DNA of 64,000 bases from Orenia metallireducens (GTDB taxonomy: Bacteria; Bacillota; Halanaerobiia; Halobacteroidales; Halobacteroidaceae): contig NZ_PVNB01000004.1 in the NCBI RefSeq assembly GCF_003001995.1, positions 62,001-126,000 of the forward strand, in the 5' to 3' direction. Positions within the stretch are counted from its first letter, which is position 1. Each line of letters starts with the position of its first letter. The position numbers and the translations under genes are program-made. Under the pieces are notes generated by a model. The model was not told the origin of the DNA and made no database searches. It worked only from the letters and a program-made list of their open reading frames with translations. Of this stretch, positions 1 to 35,521 are shown one piece after another.

Positions 1-1
1 T

Positions 2-1351
2 AAAATTTTTAGAGATGATTTTAAGGACTTTGTAGTTTTAGCTACTGGAGAGATTATTTATAGTAAGGATAATAAAGAGGAGTTTGGTTCAGAGCTTTGG
101 AGTTATAGCTCTAAGGGTAAAGAGAAATTAGCAGTAACAGAGGAGCTTATCAGCGAAATCAGAGCTTATCGAGATAGATTTATAGTAGTTGCTAAGCAGA
201 GGGTCGGTTCTTGGAATATTAACTATTTAGATTTAGAGCAGGATAAAGTATCTTTAGAACCGATTATCAAGACCCCTTATACAGAAGAGTTTATCAAGGT
301 GATAGGTGATAAGATTTATTTTACAGCCAATTATGATGATCACCATTCGGTTTATAGCTATGATTTATTATCTAAAAGGTTAGCTCAAATTACTACAGGT
401 GCTTATAGTGTAGATGGAATACCCTATCAAGATAAGTATTATTTTGTTAGTTTAACAGCAGATGGAGAAGGGGTTTATAGAAAGAACTTAGATTTTAAAT
501 CTGTTGCCATACCAGAAGTAGAAGAAGAAAGAGCTTTAAATATAGATTTTGATGGCAAAGTTAAAGGAGGAAGTGCTGGACTTAAGAGTTTAAGTTACTT
601 GTTTAAGCCCTATCTAAGATTTCCATTCTTGATGGGCGAGGATGCTTTGGGTCAAAATTATTATCTGCTTAATTATTTTGATGATTTTTCTTTTACCTTT
701 GGCACTAAACTATTAAATTCATTGAATTTAGCAGTAAGTAACTTTGAAGATGATGAAGAGGATAATCAGAGAAGTACAGAATTGTCTTTGGACTATCCAC
801 TTTATTCATCTAAATTAAGTGGTTTATCATCATTGAACTTAGGTTATAGTACAGACTTTGATGAAGACTCGAATCCAAAATTGGCCGTCTTCTTCTCTTA
901 TCCTAGACAGGATATTTCATTATCATCAGAGGTCAATCTAAAGGTTGATGATAGTATTAATACAACACTTAATTATCGTTATACCTTTAATAACAGTAGT
1001 CTAGCCTTTAAAGCTAAAAGGTATGATGATTTTGATAGTGAAGAGAGCATCCGTTCCTTTGATTCAGCAGAGGTCGATGATGGGTATCAACTTAGTGTAG
1101 ACTACATTCATAAATTAACAGAGGTTAGAAGTGGTTCATGGAGTCCTAATATCTTCCTTGGTGATATCTATGGTAGTGTTTTTATAGATTATGCCCATGA
1201 ATTAGAAGATGATAATCATGACCTTTCTGGAGGTTACGAATTTTTAGTTGAGATGGGTCTCTTTAATTATCTCTCTGTAGTACCTAGATTAGGAGTGACA
1301 ACTGATGGGCAAGAGGTCAAAGGCTATTTGGGAGTTAAGATGGATCTTTAG
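2..1351 (+). CDS. Propeller plus outer-membrane barrel protein, 5'-truncated by window edge
   Basis: The reading frame is open from base 2 without an obvious start, so the gene begins before the window; 449 residues are visible. The first ~190 residues are short beta strands with repeated Y-aromatic/D-G turns (for example ANYDDHHSVYSYD), like TolB/WD40-type propeller blades. The last ~260 residues alternate hydrophobic and polar residues in long strands with acidic turns (DSNPKLAVFFSYP, NTTLNYRYTF), typical of an outer-membrane beta-barrel; the protein ends at ...GVKMDL, without a terminal Phe. The architecture is inferred from strand patterning, not from a recognised family motif. It fits the diderm envelope indicated by the heptose genes at 55-57 kb. 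A perfect palindromic terminator follows. Confidence 0.6.
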   Translation, partial: KIFRDDFKDFVVLATGEIIYSKDNKEEFGSELWSYSSKGKEKLAVTEELISEIRAYRDRFIVVAKQRVGSWNINYLDLEQDKVSLEPIIKTPYTEEFIKVIGDKIYFTANYDDHHSVYSYDLLSKRLAQITTGAYSVDGIPYQDKYYFVSLTADGEGVYRKNLDFKSVAIPEVEEERALNIDFDGKVKGGSAGLKSLSYLFKPYLRFPFLMGEDALGQNYYLLNYFDDFSFTFGTKLLNSLNLAVSNFEDDEEDNQRSTELSLDYPLYSSKLSGLSSLNLGYSTDFDEDSNPKLAVFFSYPRQDISLSSEVNLKVDDSINTTLNYRYTFNNSSLAFKAKRYDDFDSEESIRSFDSAEVDDGYQLSVDYIHKLTEVRSGSWSPNIFLGDIYGSVFIDYAHELEDDNHDLSGGYEFLVEMGLFNYLSVVPRLGVTTDGQEVKGYLGVKMDL

Positions 1352-27422: not shown

Positions 27423-27426
27423 TCTT

Positions 27427-27464
27427 AAAGCCCCGAACTACATTATAATGTAGTTCGGGGCTTT
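27427..27464. terminator. Terminator after ligA
   Basis: A 38-bp perfect palindrome (AAAGCCCCGAACTACATTA and complement) followed by ATTTAT. Confidence 0.92.
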
Positions 27465-27697
27465 ATTTATATTAACTTAGAATTTTTAATAAAGAGTTAA
27501 ATTTGATTTAATATATTATTCATAAAAATTATTTTGAAATTTAATTACATAATAGGTTGTAATTGTAATTAGTGTTGTTTAATATAAAGTTGTAACGTTA
27601 TAATTGTATTTGGAGTGATATAATACCATCAGTAGCGTTGTATCGAAAAAATTAGATAGAGTATTTATTTAAAAAAATTTAATTTAGTTGTTTTTGA

Positions 27698-27738
27698 CGC
27701 TCCTCGGAGCGAACTCACGAGGATTCCTCGTTCCTATA
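27698..27738. repeat. GC-rich mini-hairpins beside MITE-like copy 5
   Basis: CGCTCC-TC-GGAGCG and ACGAGGA-T-TCCTCGT are two small hairpins in otherwise AT-rich DNA, directly abutting the left end of the repeat at 27732. Confidence 0.5.
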
Positions 27739-27935
27739 GATTCGTGAATTGAAAATGAAACTTAATGGATATATTGCGACACCTTTTCTTTGGTGGTCAG
27801 GAGTTAGAAATTTAGGTAGTTAGGTAGTTAGGCAGTTCCTAACCATCTACCCACCTATCTACCTAACAACAAAAGTGTCTTAATACCTCTATATAGCGTC
27901 ATGGTTAAATTTCATTCTAGATTCACGAACCTATA
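27732..27935. repeat. MITE-like palindromic element, copy 5 with long outer arms
   Basis: The outer arms CCTATAGATTCGTGAATT and AGATTCACGAACCTATAG extend the usual inner arms GGATATATTGCGACACC and AAAAGTGTCTTAATACCTC. The core is GGTAGTTAGGCAGTTCCTAACC with GTAG/CTAC flanks, as in copy 2. It lies between ligA and the BTAD regulator. Confidence 0.75.
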
Positions 27936-27989
27936 GTAAGAATAAGCTAAATGTTTACTGAAATAATTGCAAGAAGGGAGAAAAATTTG

Positions 27990-29177
27990 ATGTTAAAAAA
28001 TAATTTGAAAATATATGCTCTGGGTCCCTTTTACATAGAGATTGAAGGAAAAAGATTAGATGGAGGTAATTGGAAGGAAAGAAAATCACTGGCATTATTT
28101 AAATGTCTGTCAATTGAATTTCCTAAACACATTAGTATTGAAAGATTGATAGATAAATTATGGCCAGAGTGTGATGAACAGTATGGTAAACCTAGATTAT
28201 ACGATACGGTTTATAAACTTCGAAAGATATTAGATTCTGATGACTCAGAGAGCTATATAATAAAATTACCAGAAGGTTATGTTTTGAATAAAAATAAAAA
28301 TTATTGGTTTGATTGGAGAGAATTTTCTGATATTTATGACAAATATAAGTTTAATAAGAACTGGCCTAACTATTCTAAGGAAGAATTAAATCAATCTATA
28401 GATGAACTTAGTTGGGCTCTTAACCTTTATAGAGGAGATTTTATGGAAAATTGTTTATATGATGATTTGATGGATATGCAACGAACCCATTATAGACAAA
28501 TTATGTTAGATATGGTTATATTATTAGTTAAGATGCTTATTAAAGGGGACCAAAATGAAAAAGCTATTAATTATTTGAAATATGGTATACAAGAAGAACC
28601 TTATAGAGAAGAACTGTATATATTATTTATGCAGATATTGGGTAGGGAAAATAGAGTTTCAGAGGTTGTTGCTTTATATAAGAGGTATAAAAAGATATTG
28701 CAGAAGGAGCTAGGTTTATCATCTTATAATAGGTTAGAAGCTGAGTACAAAAAAATTATTAGTTATAATATGGGCACATCAACTGCTCAGGATGATGTAA
28801 ATTTAGAAGAAAATATGGATAATTTAGTGTTTGGAGCTATGATATGTAACCCCAAAATTTTTAGAAAAATATATAATTTAGAAAAACAAAAAATATTTAG
28901 GGGGGGAAATCCATTTACTATATTAAAGATAAGTTTTGATAATGTATTAAATTCTGAATTATTAGAAAAATTTATAGTAGAGCTTAGTAAAAATCTTAGA
29001 TCAGTAGATGTTATTGCAAAATGGAATTCTTGTAGTATATATGTTCTTTTGCATGGTACTCCTATTGAATGTAATACTGTAATTTCGCAGAGGTTATTTA
29101 AAATATCTTCATTGAGCAGAATTGAGGAAGACCCAAAAATAGAATGGGAGGAAATATCTAAAGAAAAAGCACAATGA
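27990..29177 (+). CDS. BTAD (SARP-like) transcriptional regulator
   Basis: 394 residues. Residues ~1-95 form an OmpR/SARP-like winged helix (KIYALGPFYIEIEGKRL, KSLALFKCLSIEF, RLIDKLWPE, LYDTVYKLRKIL). Residues ~105-250 are an all-helical bacterial transcriptional activation domain with TPR-like repeats (LYRGDFMENCLYDDL, LGLSSYNRLEAEYKKII). The C-terminal ~115 residues (LRSVDVIAKWNSCSIYVLLHG) resemble the degenerate cyclase/GGDEF-like domain seen at the end of some BTAD proteins; no catalytic motif is visible. AAGGGAG at 27974-27980 favours ATG 27990 over ATG 27951. It sits directly upstream of the usher operon and probably controls it. Confidence 0.85.
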   Translation: MLKNNLKIYALGPFYIEIEGKRLDGGNWKERKSLALFKCLSIEFPKHISIERLIDKLWPECDEQYGKPRLYDTVYKLRKILDSDDSESYIIKLPEGYVLNKNKNYWFDWREFSDIYDKYKFNKNWPNYSKEELNQSIDELSWALNLYRGDFMENCLYDDLMDMQRTHYRQIMLDMVILLVKMLIKGDQNEKAINYLKYGIQEEPYREELYILFMQILGRENRVSEVVALYKRYKKILQKELGLSSYNRLEAEYKKIISYNMGTSTAQDDVNLEENMDNLVFGAMICNPKIFRKIYNLEKQKIFRGGNPFTILKISFDNVLNSELLEKFIVELSKNLRSVDVIAKWNSCSIYVLLHGTPIECNTVISQRLFKISSLSRIEEDPKIEWEEISKEKAQ

Positions 29178-29202
29178 AAATTTTATAATTTTGTATAGGA
29201 AA

Positions 29203-29252
29203 TGCTCAGATCCTCTTATGTTTGTCTTAGGGGATGAATGAGCTCTTTTTTT
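29203..29252 (+). terminator. Terminator after the BTAD gene
   Basis: An imperfect stem with GCTCA / TGAGC and ATCC / GGAT helices, followed by CTTTTTTTT. It separates the regulator transcript from the usher operon. Confidence 0.75.
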
Positions 29253-29309
29253 TAGGTTTGTTACCTTAAAATTCGGCTAATTATTCCAAGGATTGTTTTT
29301 TTAAGCAAA

Positions 29310-29385
29310 AAACTTTTAAGAAAGTTCAAAAACGAGTTTTAAACGAGTTCTAATAGAAATTTAATAGAGATTTAATTGTTATAAT
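29310..29385 (+). promoter_or_regulatory. 11-bp direct-repeat operator and -10 box of the usher operon
   Basis: Units with an 11-bp period: ACGAGTTTTAA (29332), ACGAGTTCTAA (29343), TAGAAATTTAA (29354), TAGAGATTTAA (29365), then TTGTTATAATT with TATAAT at 29380-29385; weaker units (AAAGTTCAAAA and the one before it) extend upstream to ~29310. No -35 box is evident at the normal distance. SARP regulators are known to bind 11-bp-spaced direct repeats just upstream of the -10 of promoters with poor -35 boxes. That the neighbouring BTAD protein binds here is inferred. Confidence 0.7.
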
Positions 29386-29455
29386 TTATTAGAGAGATAA
29401 ATTATTGAATTTTTGATAAGGGGGTGAGAAAATTTTTAAGGATGAGGAAAAGAAA

Positions 29456-30331
29456 TTGAAGTTTATATCTTCAGTTATAATAGTATTTATAATATTGGTT
29501 TTATTTACTGAAAAAGTTGAAGCAAATTTGTCTCTAGATTTTGGAGAATTTACTCCTAAAACTAATATTACTAGTAATCTCCTATGTAGACTATCCATTG
29601 ATGAAGAAAATATAAGATTACTAGAAATATATTTAGAGGATAAATTTTATAGAACTGATAGGATCGAAAGTATTTCAGCTAATAGGTTAAAATTAAAAAC
29701 AAAAAATCAGAGAGTCTCTTTAAGAAGCAAAAAAGCAATTAAAGTTGACTTAAATGATTTACCTAAAGATGGATTAGGCTCTTTTATTCTACCTTTAAGT
29801 TTTACTGCTTTAAATACAGATTTGCCTGGTAGGTATAAAGCTAGGTTAATAATTAAAGCGCTAGACATTAAAGGGAGGGATTATCCAACCATTATAGAAA
29901 GAGAAGTAGAATTTAAGATTAATCCATGGCTAAGAATTACAAAAGTTGAGGGACGAGATAAGGTTATAATAGATAGAGTAAAAATTGATAGTAAGAAGAT
30001 ATATAGTGTAGGAGGGGCCTCTATAAAGATTGCATCTAATGTTCCTTGGAAGCTTTGTGCCAATATTAATCCAAAATTAGTTGAAGCTAAATCTTTAACT
30101 AATAGATCATTAAAGATTCAAGTTATGCCTAATTCAGATCATTATAGTATTATCAATAATGATGGTACGTTTTTTAAGAAAAATCCTACCTTAATTGTCA
30201 TAGGAACTGAGACTGTGAGAGGGGATGGTTATTGGATTAATATGCCCTTTTCTATGAGCATTGAAAACTTCACAAAGATAAAAGCAGGTAATATTTCTTT
30301 TCCAATCAATTTCTATCTCTCATTTAATTAA
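29456..30331 (+). CDS. Secreted beta-rich protein, first gene of the chaperone-usher-like operon
   Basis: 291 residues from a TTG start. The signal peptide (residues 1-23) ends at KVEA, followed by a beta-rich body with no recognised domain. The C-terminal end (KAGNISFPINFYLSFN) has the alternating final strand seen in fimbrial subunits and resembles the terminal strand of the next gene's product. A single Cys occurs in NLLCRLS and another in KLCANI, so one disulfide is possible. GATGAGGAA lies six bases before TTG 29456; the stronger AAGGGGGTGAG at about 29418 might instead serve a non-standard start upstream. A minor or tip subunit is a plausible role. Confidence 0.6.
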   Translation: MKFISSVIIVFIILVLFTEKVEANLSLDFGEFTPKTNITSNLLCRLSIDEENIRLLEIYLEDKFYRTDRIESISANRLKLKTKNQRVSLRSKKAIKVDLNDLPKDGLGSFILPLSFTALNTDLPGRYKARLIIKALDIKGRDYPTIIEREVEFKINPWLRITKVEGRDKVIIDRVKIDSKKIYSVGGASIKIASNVPWKLCANINPKLVEAKSLTNRSLKIQVMPNSDHYSIINNDGTFFKKNPTLIVIGTETVRGDGYWINMPFSMSIENFTKIKAGNISFPINFYLSFN

Positions 30332-30356
30332 AAATTTTAAGGAGGCAAAGATAATT

Positions 30357-31148
30357 ATGAAAAGATTATTAGTTTTATCTTTAGCAACTCTTTTTGTCTT
30401 AACTATGAGTATTTCCGCTTTTGCATTTGATGAAGATGCTTTTTGGGCAGAGTATGGTTCTGGTTATTCTATGGCAGAGGAAAAGCTTGATGGAATTGAA
30501 TGGACTTCTGGAGAAGCAATTAATTTAGCTAGTATTAACAGAGATGCAGAGCATTTAGATACAAATAAAAAAGAAAATGATGATGATCAAAACGTAGAAA
30601 TAGAAGTTACTGCTGAAGCTTATATTCCATGCTATCTTGAACTAAAGGTGGCAGGTAATACAAAATCCCTTAAAGGGCAAAGCTTTGGTCCAGATGCTAT
30701 TGCAAAAAGCAGTTCTTATGGAACAAACATGGAATTCGATAATGAAATGGGTGGATTTGTTGATGGTGATTGGAAGGCTTTAGGTCATGGAAAGAATGCG
30801 GAAATAGAACCAGGTGATAATGTATATATTCAAGCTTGCGACTTGTTCAAGGTCGATATTTATGGAAATGACAATTATAAATATGAAGTAGAATCCACTG
30901 GGTTAAGTGCTACAGATAACACAGGTCAAATTCTTCCTTTAGATATGAGAAGTAGTTTTGATGAAGGAGCTAGCTGGGGAGGTACTATAACTTTTGATGA
31001 AGCAACGACTGCTCCAGTTATAATTGCAGATAATATAGCTGCTACTACAGAAATGACTGTATATCATCAATTTAGAGTTCCATATACTCGTACTACAACT
31101 CATGGAAGTTATGTAGGTAAAGTAATTTTTAGAACTGTCAGTATGTAA
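30357..31148 (+). CDS. Secreted putative major pilus/fibre subunit
   Basis: 263 residues with a clean signal peptide (residues 1-23, cleavage after AFA). The mature protein is acidic and beta-rich with two Cys residues (AYIPCYLEL, YIQACDLF) placed to form one disulfide, as in chaperone-usher subunits. It ends in YVGKVIFRTVSM, a probable terminal strand of an Ig-like fold. I recognise no named family. AAGGAGG at 30339-30345 is strong, and a hairpin directly downstream (31185) would give this gene the most abundant mRNA, as expected for a major structural subunit. The role is inferred from context. Confidence 0.65.
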   Translation: MKRLLVLSLATLFVLTMSISAFAFDEDAFWAEYGSGYSMAEEKLDGIEWTSGEAINLASINRDAEHLDTNKKENDDDQNVEIEVTAEAYIPCYLELKVAGNTKSLKGQSFGPDAIAKSSSYGTNMEFDNEMGGFVDGDWKALGHGKNAEIEPGDNVYIQACDLFKVDIYGNDNYKYEVESTGLSATDNTGQILPLDMRSSFDEGASWGGTITFDEATTAPVIIADNIAATTEMTVYHQFRVPYTRTTTHGSYVGKVIFRTVSM

Positions 31149-31184
31149 AAATAATCAATTGAAAAATAACTTTTAGTTATATAG

Positions 31185-31217
31185 AGGGGTTGATGTATTT
31201 ATACATCAACCCCTTTT
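31185..31217 (+). terminator. Intra-operon hairpin after the major subunit gene
   Basis: AGGGGTTGATGTAT (31185-31198) pairs with ATACATCAACCCCT (31201-31214), followed by only three T residues. It is probably a partial terminator or mRNA 3'-end stabiliser that lowers chaperone and usher expression relative to the subunit. Confidence 0.75.
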
Positions 31218-31272
31218 GAATAAAATATTATAAAAAATTGGATGATTAATTTTAATGGAGGAGAGAGTAGTA

Positions 31273-32079
31273 ATGAAGAAGTACAGTAAACTAAAAATAT
31301 CTCTTTTGATTTTTTTATCTGTTTTTATTTTTTTTACTTATAGTGAGAGGGTAATGGCTATTACTCATATAGAGCCGGCTAGAATTATTTTATATGTAGA
31401 ACCTGGTGATAGAACAACAGGAACTATTAAAGTTACAAATAAAAGTGAGAAAGAAACAGAGGTTAAAGCAATCCTATATGATTGGACTTTAGATGATAAT
31501 GATGGACTTAATGCTACTATAGCTGGAAGCAGACCAGAGACTTTAGATGGGCTAATTAAATTTAACCCACGCAGATTTAAACTCAAGCCTGGGAAAACTC
31601 AAGTAGTTAGATTCACTATTAGTGCACCTAAGGATATAAACATAGAGAGAAGGGGGATAGTATTCTTTGAAGAAGAAACAGGTTTAATAGAAAAGACTAC
31701 AGGTGCTAATGTGGTTACTCAGATAGGAACGACTATTTATTTGGCACCAACTACTGCAAAATCTGAGTTTAAATTATTAGGTGCTAAGGTTTATATACCT
31801 AAAGATAGACAGAAAAAGAAATTAGGGGTTTTATCTTTAAATAATCAAGGAAATGCTCATATAAGATATATTATTTCTTATAAAATTATAGATGAAAAGG
31901 GAGCTTTAGTTAATGAAAATAAATTTACAGAGCAAGTAATATTGCCAGGATTTAAAAGAGGAGTTACCTTTCCTATAAAACAAGATTTAAAATCAGGAAG
32001 CTACAAGATGTTGTTAAGTTTTGAATTTCACGGAACAGCTAAAAAGGCTAATTATACTATACCATTTAAAATAAACTAG
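31273..32079 (+). CDS. PapD-like periplasmic pilus chaperone
   Basis: 268 residues: signal peptide (1-29, ending RVMA), then an N-terminal Ig-like domain with the PapD-family pattern (HIEPARIILYVEPGDRTTGT, VTNKSEKETEVKA, RFKLKPGKTQVVRFTI, RGIVFFEE) and a second domain (GVLSLNNQGNAHIRYIISYK). Classical chaperones donate a strand to fold pilus subunits in the periplasm and deliver them to the usher. Overall similarity to PapD is weak and belongs to the COG1470/COG3121 grey zone, so the role leans on the adjacent usher-like gene. GGAGGAG at 31257-31263 selects ATG 31273 over ATG 31255. Confidence 0.72.
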   Translation: MKKYSKLKISLLIFLSVFIFFTYSERVMAITHIEPARIILYVEPGDRTTGTIKVTNKSEKETEVKAILYDWTLDDNDGLNATIAGSRPETLDGLIKFNPRRFKLKPGKTQVVRFTISAPKDINIERRGIVFFEEETGLIEKTTGANVVTQIGTTIYLAPTTAKSEFKLLGAKVYIPKDRQKKKLGVLSLNNQGNAHIRYIISYKIIDEKGALVNENKFTEQVILPGFKRGVTFPIKQDLKSGSYKMLLSFEFHGTAKKANYTIPFKIN

Positions 32080-32099
32080 TTCAAAGGATAGGGAGGGAA

Positions 32100-35000
32100 T
32101 TGCTTATAAAAAGAATATATTTGTTAAAAATTATATTTCTAATAGTTCTCTTTTCTTTTTTTTCTCTCTTTATTTATGCTAAAGAAGATTTAGATTTGGA
32201 GACGAATATTGTTCTTTTAAAAATATCTAGTCATGAGAAGGTAATTTGTGAGGATCCTTTTTTTGAATTGTTATTACTATATGATGAAAGTTCTGAAGAA
32301 GATTATATTCTTTTGCCTTTAAATATGTTAACCTCCTATTTCAAAATGAAAATAAATTTTTATCGAGAAAATAATATGTTGGTAGTAATAAATTCAGCAA
32401 ATAAAACAGAATTAAGGATAGATTTAGAGAATAAAAAGTATTTGGAGCATGACGAGTGGTCAAGGGAAGCCCCAATAGTTTTAGCAGGAGATTTTTTTGT
32501 TTCTTCTAAGGTCTTAGAATATCTTTTTGAAATAGAATTAGATTGGAATTCAAGATATCAAGAATTAACTTTAACAGGTGATTATTTTGCAAAAGAAGAT
32601 GATTTAAAAGAGAATGAAAGAGAAGAGAAGGATAAAGCTATAAAAGAGGAAGAGAAAGTGCAAGAGATAATTGAAGGTCCAGATTTTTCTCTAGGTTCTA
32701 TCCAATATGAGACAGGATGGGAATATCGAAAAAATGAGAATGGAATAGAGAAGTTTATTAATGAAAACAAATTAAATGTTCATGGAAGGATTAAAGATTG
32801 GGCAATCTCCTTAGGAGGAGAGAGTAATATAGATTTTTATAATAATAAAGAATTTGAATTGGACTTTATTAAAGCTATTTACAAAGAAAATAAAAAATTT
32901 ATTATACTGGGAGATTCACAATCTGATAGCTTTAAAGCCATAGGTGATAAGTCTTTACGAGGACTGTATTATAGAAATTCAGATAAGAAGATGAGTCGAG
33001 TTTTAGCTTATACATCTATTACTGGAAAAGCAGAAGAAGGCGATGTTGTTACTTTATATGTAAACGAAGAAAAGTATAATTACCTTAAAGTCTTATCAGA
33101 TAATCTTTATACTTTTGAACATATTTATTTAAAGAAAAATAAAATAAATACCTTAAAGGTAGTAATTGAAAAGCCTAATGGTGAACAAATAGAGAGAGTA
33201 AAAAGAGTAGCAGCCAGTCCAAAAATCTATGAAGAAGGTACTAGAAATTTTGAATTTGCAATTGCTTCATATAAAGAAGACGATCATGATGATTGGGAAG
33301 GAAAGATGATTGGTTGGAGAAAAGATATTGCTTTATCAGAAAACATAAGTGTTAATTGGGAAGCTATAGTAAGAGAAGATTATAATTATGGGGAAAAATT
33401 GTTATCAAGTTCTGATTTGGGCATAGCTTTTAGAATGGGGAAAAATATGGTTATGGATTTAGACTGGTATCTACTAGGAAATAAAAGTAATTTTGAGCAG
33501 GGGGGTGTGAGTTCTTTACTATATTGTTTAGATTCAGGATATGTTGAAGGAACTTATTTTTACCTTCCTGATAAAGTCAATGAAGAGATTTATGATAATA
33601 CAGGAAAGGGAGTTAAGTTAATCAGTGTTTGGGATTTTTCTTCTGAATGGAGTGTAAATTCTTTGCTTACTTGTTATTATCCTAATTTATTCACTGACTT
33701 GGAAAAGAATAGAAAGGCTGAAATTTCTTTTGAACATCAAAAGAATTGGCGAAGTTTAACTAAAATAACTCTATCAGCTGAACAAGAAGATTCTATTGAT
33801 CAAGATTTTAGTGATGACAAGAAAATAGTCGTTAAAGATATATATAGATTAACTGTAGGTAAAAGTAAAACTAGTGATGGTTTTAGGGGTGATGGTGAAT
33901 TAAGTATATTTGACAAGAAGATATCTTTTGATGATAAGGAGATAAGTTATAATAAATTAAAATTGAGGACTGATTTTTATAAGAAAATATCAGATTCTTT
34001 AGTTATAACAAATAGTATTGAAGGAAGTGGAAAATTATATGATAGTCAAGGTAGATTTATTGATGTAGAGGCTCAAACAGAATCTAAACTCAAATTGAGT
34101 CCAAATGACAAATTATCCTGTTCTATTAGACATAGTTTGGAAGGAGAAAAAAAGTTTGATTCTTTTAAAAAAGCTTCAGAAGAATTGAAATTTAATACTC
34201 ATTATTATATAAATAGTGATAATATTATTGATTTGGGTATAACTAACAATAGTTCGGTAAATAGTCTAGATTATAGGTCTTATTCTTTAGGAATAACGCG
34301 CTTCTTTGAAGATGGGGCTGGTGAGGTTTCTTTAGATATAGAAAGACTTATTCCAAAAGAGTTAGATAGAAGGCAAAGAGATAATATACAATTAGATATT
34401 AAGAAGAGGTTAGAGTCTAAAAGAGAGATAAAATTTAGTGTAGGAAAAGTATATGATATTGTCAACCAAATTTCTGAATATTTTGCTAAAATTTCTATAA
34501 CTCATGCTTTTGGTTTTGCTAAAGGAAATAAATTCAATCAAGAATTTAAAGATAATAATCATATTTCATCTGTGGTGGGACATGTTTATTTAGATGAAAA
34601 TAATAATAAAAAAATGGATGAAGGTGAAAAGAGACTTTCGGGAATAGATATGATTTTAGATAATCTTCGAGCGACGACTTTTGAAGATGGTCAATTTATC
34701 TTTAACCTTACTATGCCAGGTATATATACTTTGAACTTTGATTTTAATTCATTAGATGCTGATTATACTCCTGTTACTAAAGAAAAGGTAATTAGGGTTA
34801 AAAAGAATGAAAATATGGCTTTCAATTATGGACTTACTATGAATGGTTCTGTTTCTGGAATGGTATTTATAGATAAAAATGCTAATGGAAAAAAAGATGG
34901 AGATGAAGAACCATTACAATGGATTGGATTTACACTAAATGAAAAGACAATCTATACAGATAAGAGAGGTGAGTTCTATTTTGAAAATATTCCTCTTGGT

Positions 35001-35138
35001 GAACATTCTTTAACTATTATTAAGGAATCATTACCAAAAGGAATGGTATCAAAGGTAGGTAATTCTTTTAAAGTTAAAATCAGAAAAGAAGATTTAGATG
35101 TAAGAGATATATTTATTCCATTAGTATATAATTTTTAA
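32100..35138 (+). CDS. Usher-like outer-membrane protein with C-terminal SdrD/CNA-B repeats
   Basis: 1012 residues. Signal peptide 1-27; residues ~55-165 look like the paired alpha/beta domain of copper-amine-oxidase N type (LLPLNMLTSYFKMKINFY); residues ~165-200 are a charged linker; from ~205 a long beta-barrel region begins. GDSQSDSF (~271) and VTLYVNEEKYNYLKV...IEKPNGEQ (~318-365) match the position and pattern of the usher plug domain (VELYVNG...G). Residues ~826-1000 hold two CNA-B/SdrD-like repeats with calcium-type loops (YLDENNNKKMDEGE, FIDKNANGKKDGDEE). The protein ends VYNF with a terminal Phe. A TTG start at 32100 is likely; GGGAGGG lies very close. Confidence 0.72.
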   Translation: MLIKRIYLLKIIFLIVLFSFFSLFIYAKEDLDLETNIVLLKISSHEKVICEDPFFELLLLYDESSEEDYILLPLNMLTSYFKMKINFYRENNMLVVINSANKTELRIDLENKKYLEHDEWSREAPIVLAGDFFVSSKVLEYLFEIELDWNSRYQELTLTGDYFAKEDDLKENEREEKDKAIKEEEKVQEIIEGPDFSLGSIQYETGWEYRKNENGIEKFINENKLNVHGRIKDWAISLGGESNIDFYNNKEFELDFIKAIYKENKKFIILGDSQSDSFKAIGDKSLRGLYYRNSDKKMSRVLAYTSITGKAEEGDVVTLYVNEEKYNYLKVLSDNLYTFEHIYLKKNKINTLKVVIEKPNGEQIERVKRVAASPKIYEEGTRNFEFAIASYKEDDHDDWEGKMIGWRKDIALSENISVNWEAIVREDYNYGEKLLSSSDLGIAFRMGKNMVMDLDWYLLGNKSNFEQGGVSSLLYCLDSGYVEGTYFYLPDKVNEEIYDNTGKGVKLISVWDFSSEWSVNSLLTCYYPNLFTDLEKNRKAEISFEHQKNWRSLTKITLSAEQEDSIDQDFSDDKKIVVKDIYRLTVGKSKTSDGFRGDGELSIFDKKISFDDKEISYNKLKLRTDFYKKISDSLVITNSIEGSGKLYDSQGRFIDVEAQTESKLKLSPNDKLSCSIRHSLEGEKKFDSFKKASEELKFNTHYYINSDNIIDLGITNNSSVNSLDYRSYSLGITRFFEDGAGEVSLDIERLIPKELDRRQRDNIQLDIKKRLESKREIKFSVGKVYDIVNQISEYFAKISITHAFGFAKGNKFNQEFKDNNHISSVVGHVYLDENNNKKMDEGEKRLSGIDMILDNLRATTFEDGQFIFNLTMPGIYTLNFDFNSLDADYTPVTKEKVIRVKKNENMAFNYGLTMNGSVSGMVFIDKNANGKKDGDEEPLQWIGFTLNEKTIYTDKRGEFYFENIPLGEHSLTIIKESLPKGMVSKVGNSFKVKIRKEDLDVRDIFIPLVYNF

Positions 35139-35155
35139 ATTGTTTTTGATTTAAG

Positions 35156-35191
35156 AACCAATTTATCTAGCTATAGCTAGATAAATTGGTT
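35156..35191. terminator. Terminator of the usher operon
   Basis: A 36-bp perfect palindrome, AACCAATTTATCTAGCTA and its complement, then TTATTATAT. The rest of the 35192-35441 gap is AT-rich with no feature I can support. Confidence 0.85.
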
Positions 35192-35441
35192 TATTATATA
35201 TCTAAAATTTAATTAATTAAATTTTAGAGGAATATGCCATAGGAAGAGAGTATAATTAATTTAGAATAAAATTTTATTTTTATCCTCGAAATTGAGTTTA
35301 AGTATAGAAAATTTTAATTTTTTGAAAAAAGAAGTGTAGTTGATTTCTATGTGCTATATCAAATATGAGTAAGTATATTATATCTTAATAATGGAAGTAT
35401 AAAACAGTAAATAATTTAAATCTACTTATTTTACTTAAATT

Positions 35442-35471
35442 TTGACATTAAATCTCTTGGAATAGTATAAT
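35442..35471 (+). promoter_or_regulatory. Promoter of the cyclophilin gene
   Basis: TTGACA at 35442-35447, an 18-bp spacer and TATAAT at 35466-35471. Confidence 0.75.
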
Positions 35472-35521
35472 AAAGAGTAATTTTATAGATGAAATTAATT
35501 AAATAATAAGGAGGAATTATA

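Follow-up and report, generated by a model that had tools for sequence, protein, structure and literature searches.

A chaperone-usher secretion and fibre-assembly system of an apparently undescribed branch is very probably encoded in the genome of Orenia metallireducens, with its mechanism and the fibre itself being inferred. Five reading frames on the plus strand, at positions 27951-35138 of the window (the whole 64,000-nucleotide stretch of DNA that was analysed), form one unit and encode, in this order, a BTAD regulator, a secreted protein here called P2, a pilin-like subunit, a chaperone and an usher (Table 1). A chaperone-usher-like secretion locus had been suspected here in a preliminary description of this DNA, and this reading is supported by the predicted fold of the usher, by the homology of its plug, its C-terminal domains and the chaperone to proteins of the archaic pathway, and by the pilin-like model of the subunit. 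The five consecutive genes and the terminal Phe of the usher-like protein, whose C-terminus reads ...YNF, were likewise all found as described. Homologues exist for each of the five genes, those of the last four at 21-46% identity, and the last four keep their order in many genomes, so that the five genes are more than chance reading frames.

Table 1. Features of the chaperone-usher-like operon, in window positions, with the basis of each assignment.
Feature	Position	Strand	Basis
BTAD/SARP-type transcriptional regulator	27951..29177 (possible start 27990)	+	Pfam BTAD, E 6e-18
P2, secreted protein, 291 aa	29456..30331	+	Conserved directly before subunit, chaperone and usher
Pilin-like major subunit, 263 aa	30357..31148	+	AF2 model, Foldseek FimA matches, two invariant Cys
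Proposed N-terminal donor strand of subunit, residues 78-90, QNVEIEVTAEAYI	30588..30626	+	Model strand 80-89, fold alignment; inference
Periplasmic PapD-like chaperone, two Ig domains, 274 aa	31255..32079 (possible start 31273)	+	hhalign
Proposed G1 donor strand of chaperone, about GANVVTQIGTTIYLAP, residues 150-165	31702..31749	+	Alignment position with archaic chaperones and EcpB; inference
Usher-like outer-membrane protein, 1012 aa	32100..35138	+	AF2 model, Foldseek
Usher N-terminal domain, residues 34-160	32199..32579	+	Resembles Cu_amine_oxidN1; at the place of the usher NTD
Predicted barrel strands 1-6, residues 196-293	32685..32978	+	AF2 model, alternation test
Predicted plug domain, residues 303-371, between strands 6 and 7	33006..33212	+	AF2 model, archaic-plug profile match
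Predicted barrel strands 7-30, residues 382-807	33243..34520	+	AF2 model, constant length in homologues
Two C-terminal prealbumin/SdrD_B-like domains, residues 815-1010, at the CTD1/CTD2 place	34542..35135	+	Pfam, archaic CTD match
Intrinsic-terminator-like hairpin closing the operon	35155..35192	+	

The operon lies between ligA, which has a terminator-like hairpin of its own (27426-27465), and a PPIase gene. In three relatives (two from the same genus, the third from the same family) it is absent from this place; the two flanking genes are adjacent there, in one case only 97 bases apart, as against about 8.1 kb in O. metallireducens (window 27423-35521). The operon is thus an island, either gained in O. 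metallireducens or lost in these relatives. Directly upstream of the BTAD gene, at the upstream edge of the operon, a MITE-like element was observed (window 27731-27939), with 35-nt inverted arms that are 83% complementary; the genome contains over 40 partial copies of it. The four Omp85 matches in the genome show that O. metallireducens builds an outer membrane; a match to LptD was also sought in the genome and was not found.

A survey of synteny among the Halanaerobiales had been proposed earlier, and mapping of loci with HMMs of the five proteins showed that the order P2-subunit-chaperone-usher recurs beyond O. metallireducens, in most loci with enough flanking sequence, from Halanaerobium, metagenome-assembled genomes (MAGs) of the Halobacteroidaceae and other families of the phylum. 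Many genomes of the class carry a full-length homologue of the usher at 27-35% identity, including Halanaerobium kushneri, H. saccharolyticum and MAGs of the Halobacteroidaceae, and at least three other families of the phylum have homologues as well. Homologues of the subunit from the two named Halanaerobium species lie at L034 5273-6094 and L033 5240-6100. The BTAD protein (408 aa, a winged helix plus the BTAD domain) is probably the regulator of the operon, a role that is inferred; BTAD genes also stand upstream of the same operon in loci L015, L021/L041, L027, L034 and L038.

Several variants of the locus were observed in the course of this mapping. Ushers of the same family occur without chaperone or subunit genes nearby (L016 6222-9257, L017 5823-8903, L018 3447-6515, L025 4136-7189), a point that weighs against the chaperone-usher reading, and tandem usher pairs are present at L041 6908-12974, L035 708-6761 and L027 6317-12353, the second usher of the pair having about 925 aa and missing the last C-terminal domain. 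More distant chaperone-usher loci, with a barrel region shorter than that of the window usher, are L026 5779-10720 and L111 4657-9019, and one more Cu_amine_oxidN1 domain is present at the C-terminal end of the L026 usher. Another type of locus was seen both in the same genome (L022 4299-9166, contig C20) and on a plasmid of Deinococcus sp. D7000 (L081 1241-6843). Besides small secreted proteins it encodes a related chaperone together with a barrel-like protein that has Ig-like (NEW3-type) domains in its front part and SdrD_B-like domains in its rear part; no plug was detected in this protein, which is possibly a plug-less usher.

The subunit contains two cysteines, Cys92 and Cys161, that are invariant in eight homologues, and its AlphaFold2 model is of low confidence (pLDDT 61.9, pTM 0.61). 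The six best Foldseek matches of this model are all FimA pilins (E 1.2e-4 to 2.2e-3), and VIA-align places residues 73-263 of the subunit on residues 3-162 of FimA with a Z of 6.6, CfaE, PapE, FimF and CsuA/B also appearing among the matches; this highest Z remains below 8, the value given by the tool as the level of common arrangements. The subunit therefore resembles a chaperone-usher pilin in fold only as far as a low-confidence model can tell. Residues 78-90, just before Cys92, alternate in hydrophobicity, and QNVEIEVTAEAYIPC would comprise the donor strand together with the start of strand A. Profile comparisons of the subunit and of P2 with SCPU, two-domain tip, gamma and Ecp pilins gave no sequence match; SCPU (PF05229) was not matched by any of the 8 subunits, and hhalign of the subunit against the SCPU alignment covered only 8-28 columns (E 0.003-0.05). 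P2 has no family match in Pfam or NCBIfam either, and it is probably a tip or minor subunit, an inference drawn solely from its place in the operon.

The best surviving alternative is that the operon encodes an outer-membrane platform for export or display, working by a chaperone-usher-like mechanism without building a fibre, from which the subunit, single or in short oligomers, reaches the cell surface or S-layer. Each operon has only one pilin-like subunit plus P2, the subunit, at 263 aa, is larger than usual pilins, and its model is weak, all of which would suit this alternative. Against it stand the alternating hydrophobic strand before the first Cys of the subunit and the resemblance of the model to FimA, and in other systems one major pilin plus a tip suffices for a fibre. 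We regard the platform without a fibre as unlikely, and fibre assembly as the preferred reading.

Aligned with archaic chaperones and FimC together, the chaperone matches over 218 columns and both domains (hhalign probability 97.7, E about 2.4e-12; reversed control E 0.35), in agreement with the PapD pattern noticed in the preliminary description; the matches to the gamma set (E 5e-4) and to EcpB (6e-4) are weaker. EcpB is the best PDB profile match (E 0.013), and plain hmmsearch with the chaperone HMM finds EcpB (E 4e-5) and archaic chaperones within a range of 5e-6 to 8e-5. One requirement of a chaperone-usher system, a two-domain PapD-like chaperone encoded beside the usher, is thus met. 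The chaperone strand that had been read in RFKLKPGKTQVVRFTI does not hold, as this stretch is instead a motif of D1-E1 type, and the donor strand is now placed tentatively in G1 (Table 1).

The possibility of a WxL-type surface system in diderm form, with the chaperone-like protein acting as a WxL-interacting protein and not as a donor-strand chaperone, has also to be weighed here. A weak WxLIP_PGBD match is found in 11/12 chaperone homologues (best 1.7e-4, as against 0.0027 for PapD_N in one member), and a common origin of the WxLIP and chaperone Ig families is not excluded. Nevertheless, the alignment of both domains with archaic chaperones, the rank of EcpB among PDB matches and the usher gene that adjoins the chaperone gene all speak for a donor-strand chaperone and, to our knowledge, WxL systems have no usher, so that the WxL counterpart appears very unlikely.

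The AlphaFold2 model of the usher, built from 15 sequences, has a mean pLDDT of 80.8 and a pTM of 0.54 and possesses the features by which membership among the ushers was judged, namely a barrel whose plug follows strand 6, a domain at the NTD place and two C-terminal domains; in FimD the plug likewise comes after strand 6. The plug-like sequence VTLYVNEEKYNYLKV singled out in the preliminary description falls inside this plug. In a Foldseek search of 350,542 PDB chains, ranks 1-18 are all FimD or PapC (E 8.7e-27 to 2.9e-11), followed only at 1.2e-8 by LptD. With VIA-align 2, residues 189-1008 of the usher align with residues 131-833 of FimD (9fw9_D; Z 16.2, rmsd 9.1, 612 residues). Since single TonB barrel walls align well, this comparison was weighed by coverage and not by Z: TonB receptors reach a Z of up to 19.5, several of them above FimD, but their alignments take in about 350 residues, all of barrel wall, whereas FimD alignments span 574-626 residues including plug and C-terminal domains. 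The earlier inference of an usher-like outer-membrane protein with long barrel patterning is thus supported, FimD and PapC being the best Foldseek matches by a wide margin, and the outcome that would have overturned it, a model without a plugged barrel or a plain porin, did not occur. The idea that the protein is no more than a plain outer-membrane porin or TonB-type barrel beside an unrelated S-layer-type Ig protein, which could draw on the high Z of TonB receptors and on the frequent presence of SdrD_B and Cu_amine_oxidN1 domains in surface proteins of other kinds, has already been largely refuted by the Foldseek ranking, with all ushers first, and by the plug and C-terminal matches to archaic ushers with their clean controls, the short TonB alignments and the chaperone gene beside the usher in most loci also opposing it, and deserves scarcely any credence.

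As regards the size of the barrel, about 30 strands are predicted in place of the 24 that had been expected, and we know of no usher whose barrel is as large; the pTM is moderate and closure of the barrel is not certain. Residue alternation over the 30 strands averages 3.18, compared with 1.90 (sd 0.15) after shuffling of residues within strands, and is weakest in strands 5 and 6, beside the plug. Barrel and plug together measure 612-623 residues in 15/15 homologues, from which it follows that barrel size is fixed in this usher family.

The sequence relations of the usher point to the archaic pathway. An hhalign comparison with nine archaic ushers (from two delta-proteobacterial MAGs, six proteobacterial plasmid-borne loci and one Deinococcus) gave a probability of 96.5 and an E of 1e-9. 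By profile, the plug matches the archaic plug (E 8e-8), as does the C-terminal pair the C-terminal region of archaic ushers (E 2.7e-8), with reversed-alignment controls at E 0.1 or more (0.15 for the plug). The values for other groups are E 0.05 for the gamma ushers FimD/SfmD/YraJ, 0.098 for EcpC, 0.24 for LptD and 0.15 for FhuA; this comparison is uneven, EcpB and EcpC being single sequences and the gamma set comprising only three. Plain hmmsearch with the profile of the usher family also recovers the archaic ushers of L045 (delta-proteobacterial, E 4e-8) and L048 (E 1e-5).

The two terminal regions had been described as unusual additions, a view that stands only in part. Domains like Cu_amine_oxidN1 and SdrD_B are indeed present, the former at the place of the usher NTD and the latter at that of CTD1/CTD2. 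Pfam SdrD_B is found in 15/15 usher homologues (E 2.7e-10 in the window usher), and because the pair matches the archaic CTD profile, these SdrD_B-like repeats occupy the position of the usher C-terminal domains and are related to them. Cu_amine_oxidN1 (PF07833) is matched by 10/15 homologues, at best with 3.7e-7, and below threshold by the window usher. When the N-terminal domain was compared with PDB, archaic, gamma and Cu-amine-oxidase-like domains, it was similar by eye to an usher NTD, with a weak match to the archaic NTD (E 0.01-0.05), and homology at this end is accordingly poorly supported.

Whether the system belongs to the archaic class was judged on two features. The usher and the chaperone are nearest to archaic sequences, as the class demands (within uneven comparison sets), and SCPU-domain pilins are lacking among the proteins compared. 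The usher of the window scores 12.6 bits with PF00577 (Usher), short of the cut-off of 27.1 bits, in keeping with the distant branch proposed earlier; no protein exceeds this cut-off in 61 genomes (its own and those of 60 relatives), nor is the family listed for any of the 15 homologues. The cut-off of PF00345 is not reached in the O. metallireducens genome, and single-protein searches of Pfam, NCBIfam and PDB sequences returned no usher or pilin match. With the PF00577 cut-off not reached and no SCPU match among the subunits, the system is not assigned to Pfam PF00577 or to the SCPU class. Three sub-threshold PF00577 hits were seen in this genome, two of which, on contig C16 and in the gene at the 5' end of the window, are other proteins with barrel-like parts and not ushers. 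Two related secreted proteins (837-856 aa), each combining a peptidase-like HExxH motif with a C-terminal half that resembles a barrel, are encoded at L051 8782-11352 (whose 3' part is window 1-1351) and L050 5413-7926, and their weak matches to the Usher model are probably due to chance.

The mechanism can be proposed only by inference, and this holds for donor-strand exchange, docking and fibre alike, as well as for the roles of P2 and the regulator. The BTAD protein would control the operon. After export by Sec, the subunit would be kept by the PapD-like chaperone in the periplasm, where the G1 strand of the chaperone would be lent to the incomplete Ig fold of the subunit. The complex of the two may dock on the usher N-terminal domain, while the C-terminal domains would hold the base of the growing fibre. 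In donor-strand exchange, the N-terminal strand of the incoming subunit (about residues 78-90) would displace the chaperone strand of the previous subunit, and the fibre would exit through the barrel once the plug moves out, P2 probably serving as tip or minor subunit.

Chaperone-usher pili are regarded as a Gram-negative character that occurs chiefly in Proteobacteria. With a conserved but unannotated branch among Firmicutes that bear an outer membrane, the pathway reaches a further deep diderm lineage, one in which the usher, chaperone and subunit are all missed by the curated Pfam and NCBIfam models, none of them scoring over the cut-offs. This branch offers a new usher architecture to solve and a second test case linking plug, barrel size and pilin size. 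A further possibility, to which we give somewhat less than even weight, is that this is a separate, old chaperone-usher branch native to Halanaerobiia and related families, with non-SCPU pilins and an usher of about 30 strands, wider than the 24-strand ushers solved so far. If so, the wider barrel may pass subunits of different size, and the branch, taken with the apparently plug-less barrel loci found in these lineages, would show the origin and variation of ushers in outer-membrane-bearing Firmicutes.

Archaic systems have been reported in Proteobacteria, Cyanobacteria and Deinococcus-Thermus (PMC4654587, PMC10104325). A survey of secretion systems listed T1SS and T5bSS in some Halanaerobiales and left out chaperone-usher systems (PMC4793230). 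In the open-access literature, which leaves most subscription journals uncovered, no account of a chaperone-usher system from Halanaerobiales or any other Firmicutes was found. Among the systems compared, the L022/L081 loci share with the operon a related chaperone (hhalign E 2e-16) and SdrD_B-like C-terminal domains; however, their barrel protein matches only in these domains, no plug or usher NTD was found in it, and its N-terminal domains are Ig-like, of the NEW3 type. The alternative (alpha) Ecp system of E. coli is alike through EcpB and differs in its usher, EcpC, which gives no profile match. FimD of the type 1 pilus and PapC of the P pilus are the best matches in structure, FimD being aligned over barrel, plug and C-terminal domains, but their sequence-profile match is marginal, and the window usher exceeds them by about six strands in the model and has C-terminal domains of SdrD_B type and an NTD of another sequence family. 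With respect to the archaic (sigma) pathway (Csu, CupE, SCPU pilins), the pilin of the window is non-SCPU by sequence and about 100 aa longer, the usher has about 1010 aa with some 30 predicted strands in place of about 800 aa, P2 stands before the subunit, while most of the archaic loci compared have a second SCPU protein after the usher, and a BTAD regulator and a host of another phylum are further differences; yet the subunit-chaperone-usher order is that of the archaic loci compared, and the usher plug, the C-terminal domains and both domains of the chaperone are homologous by profile.
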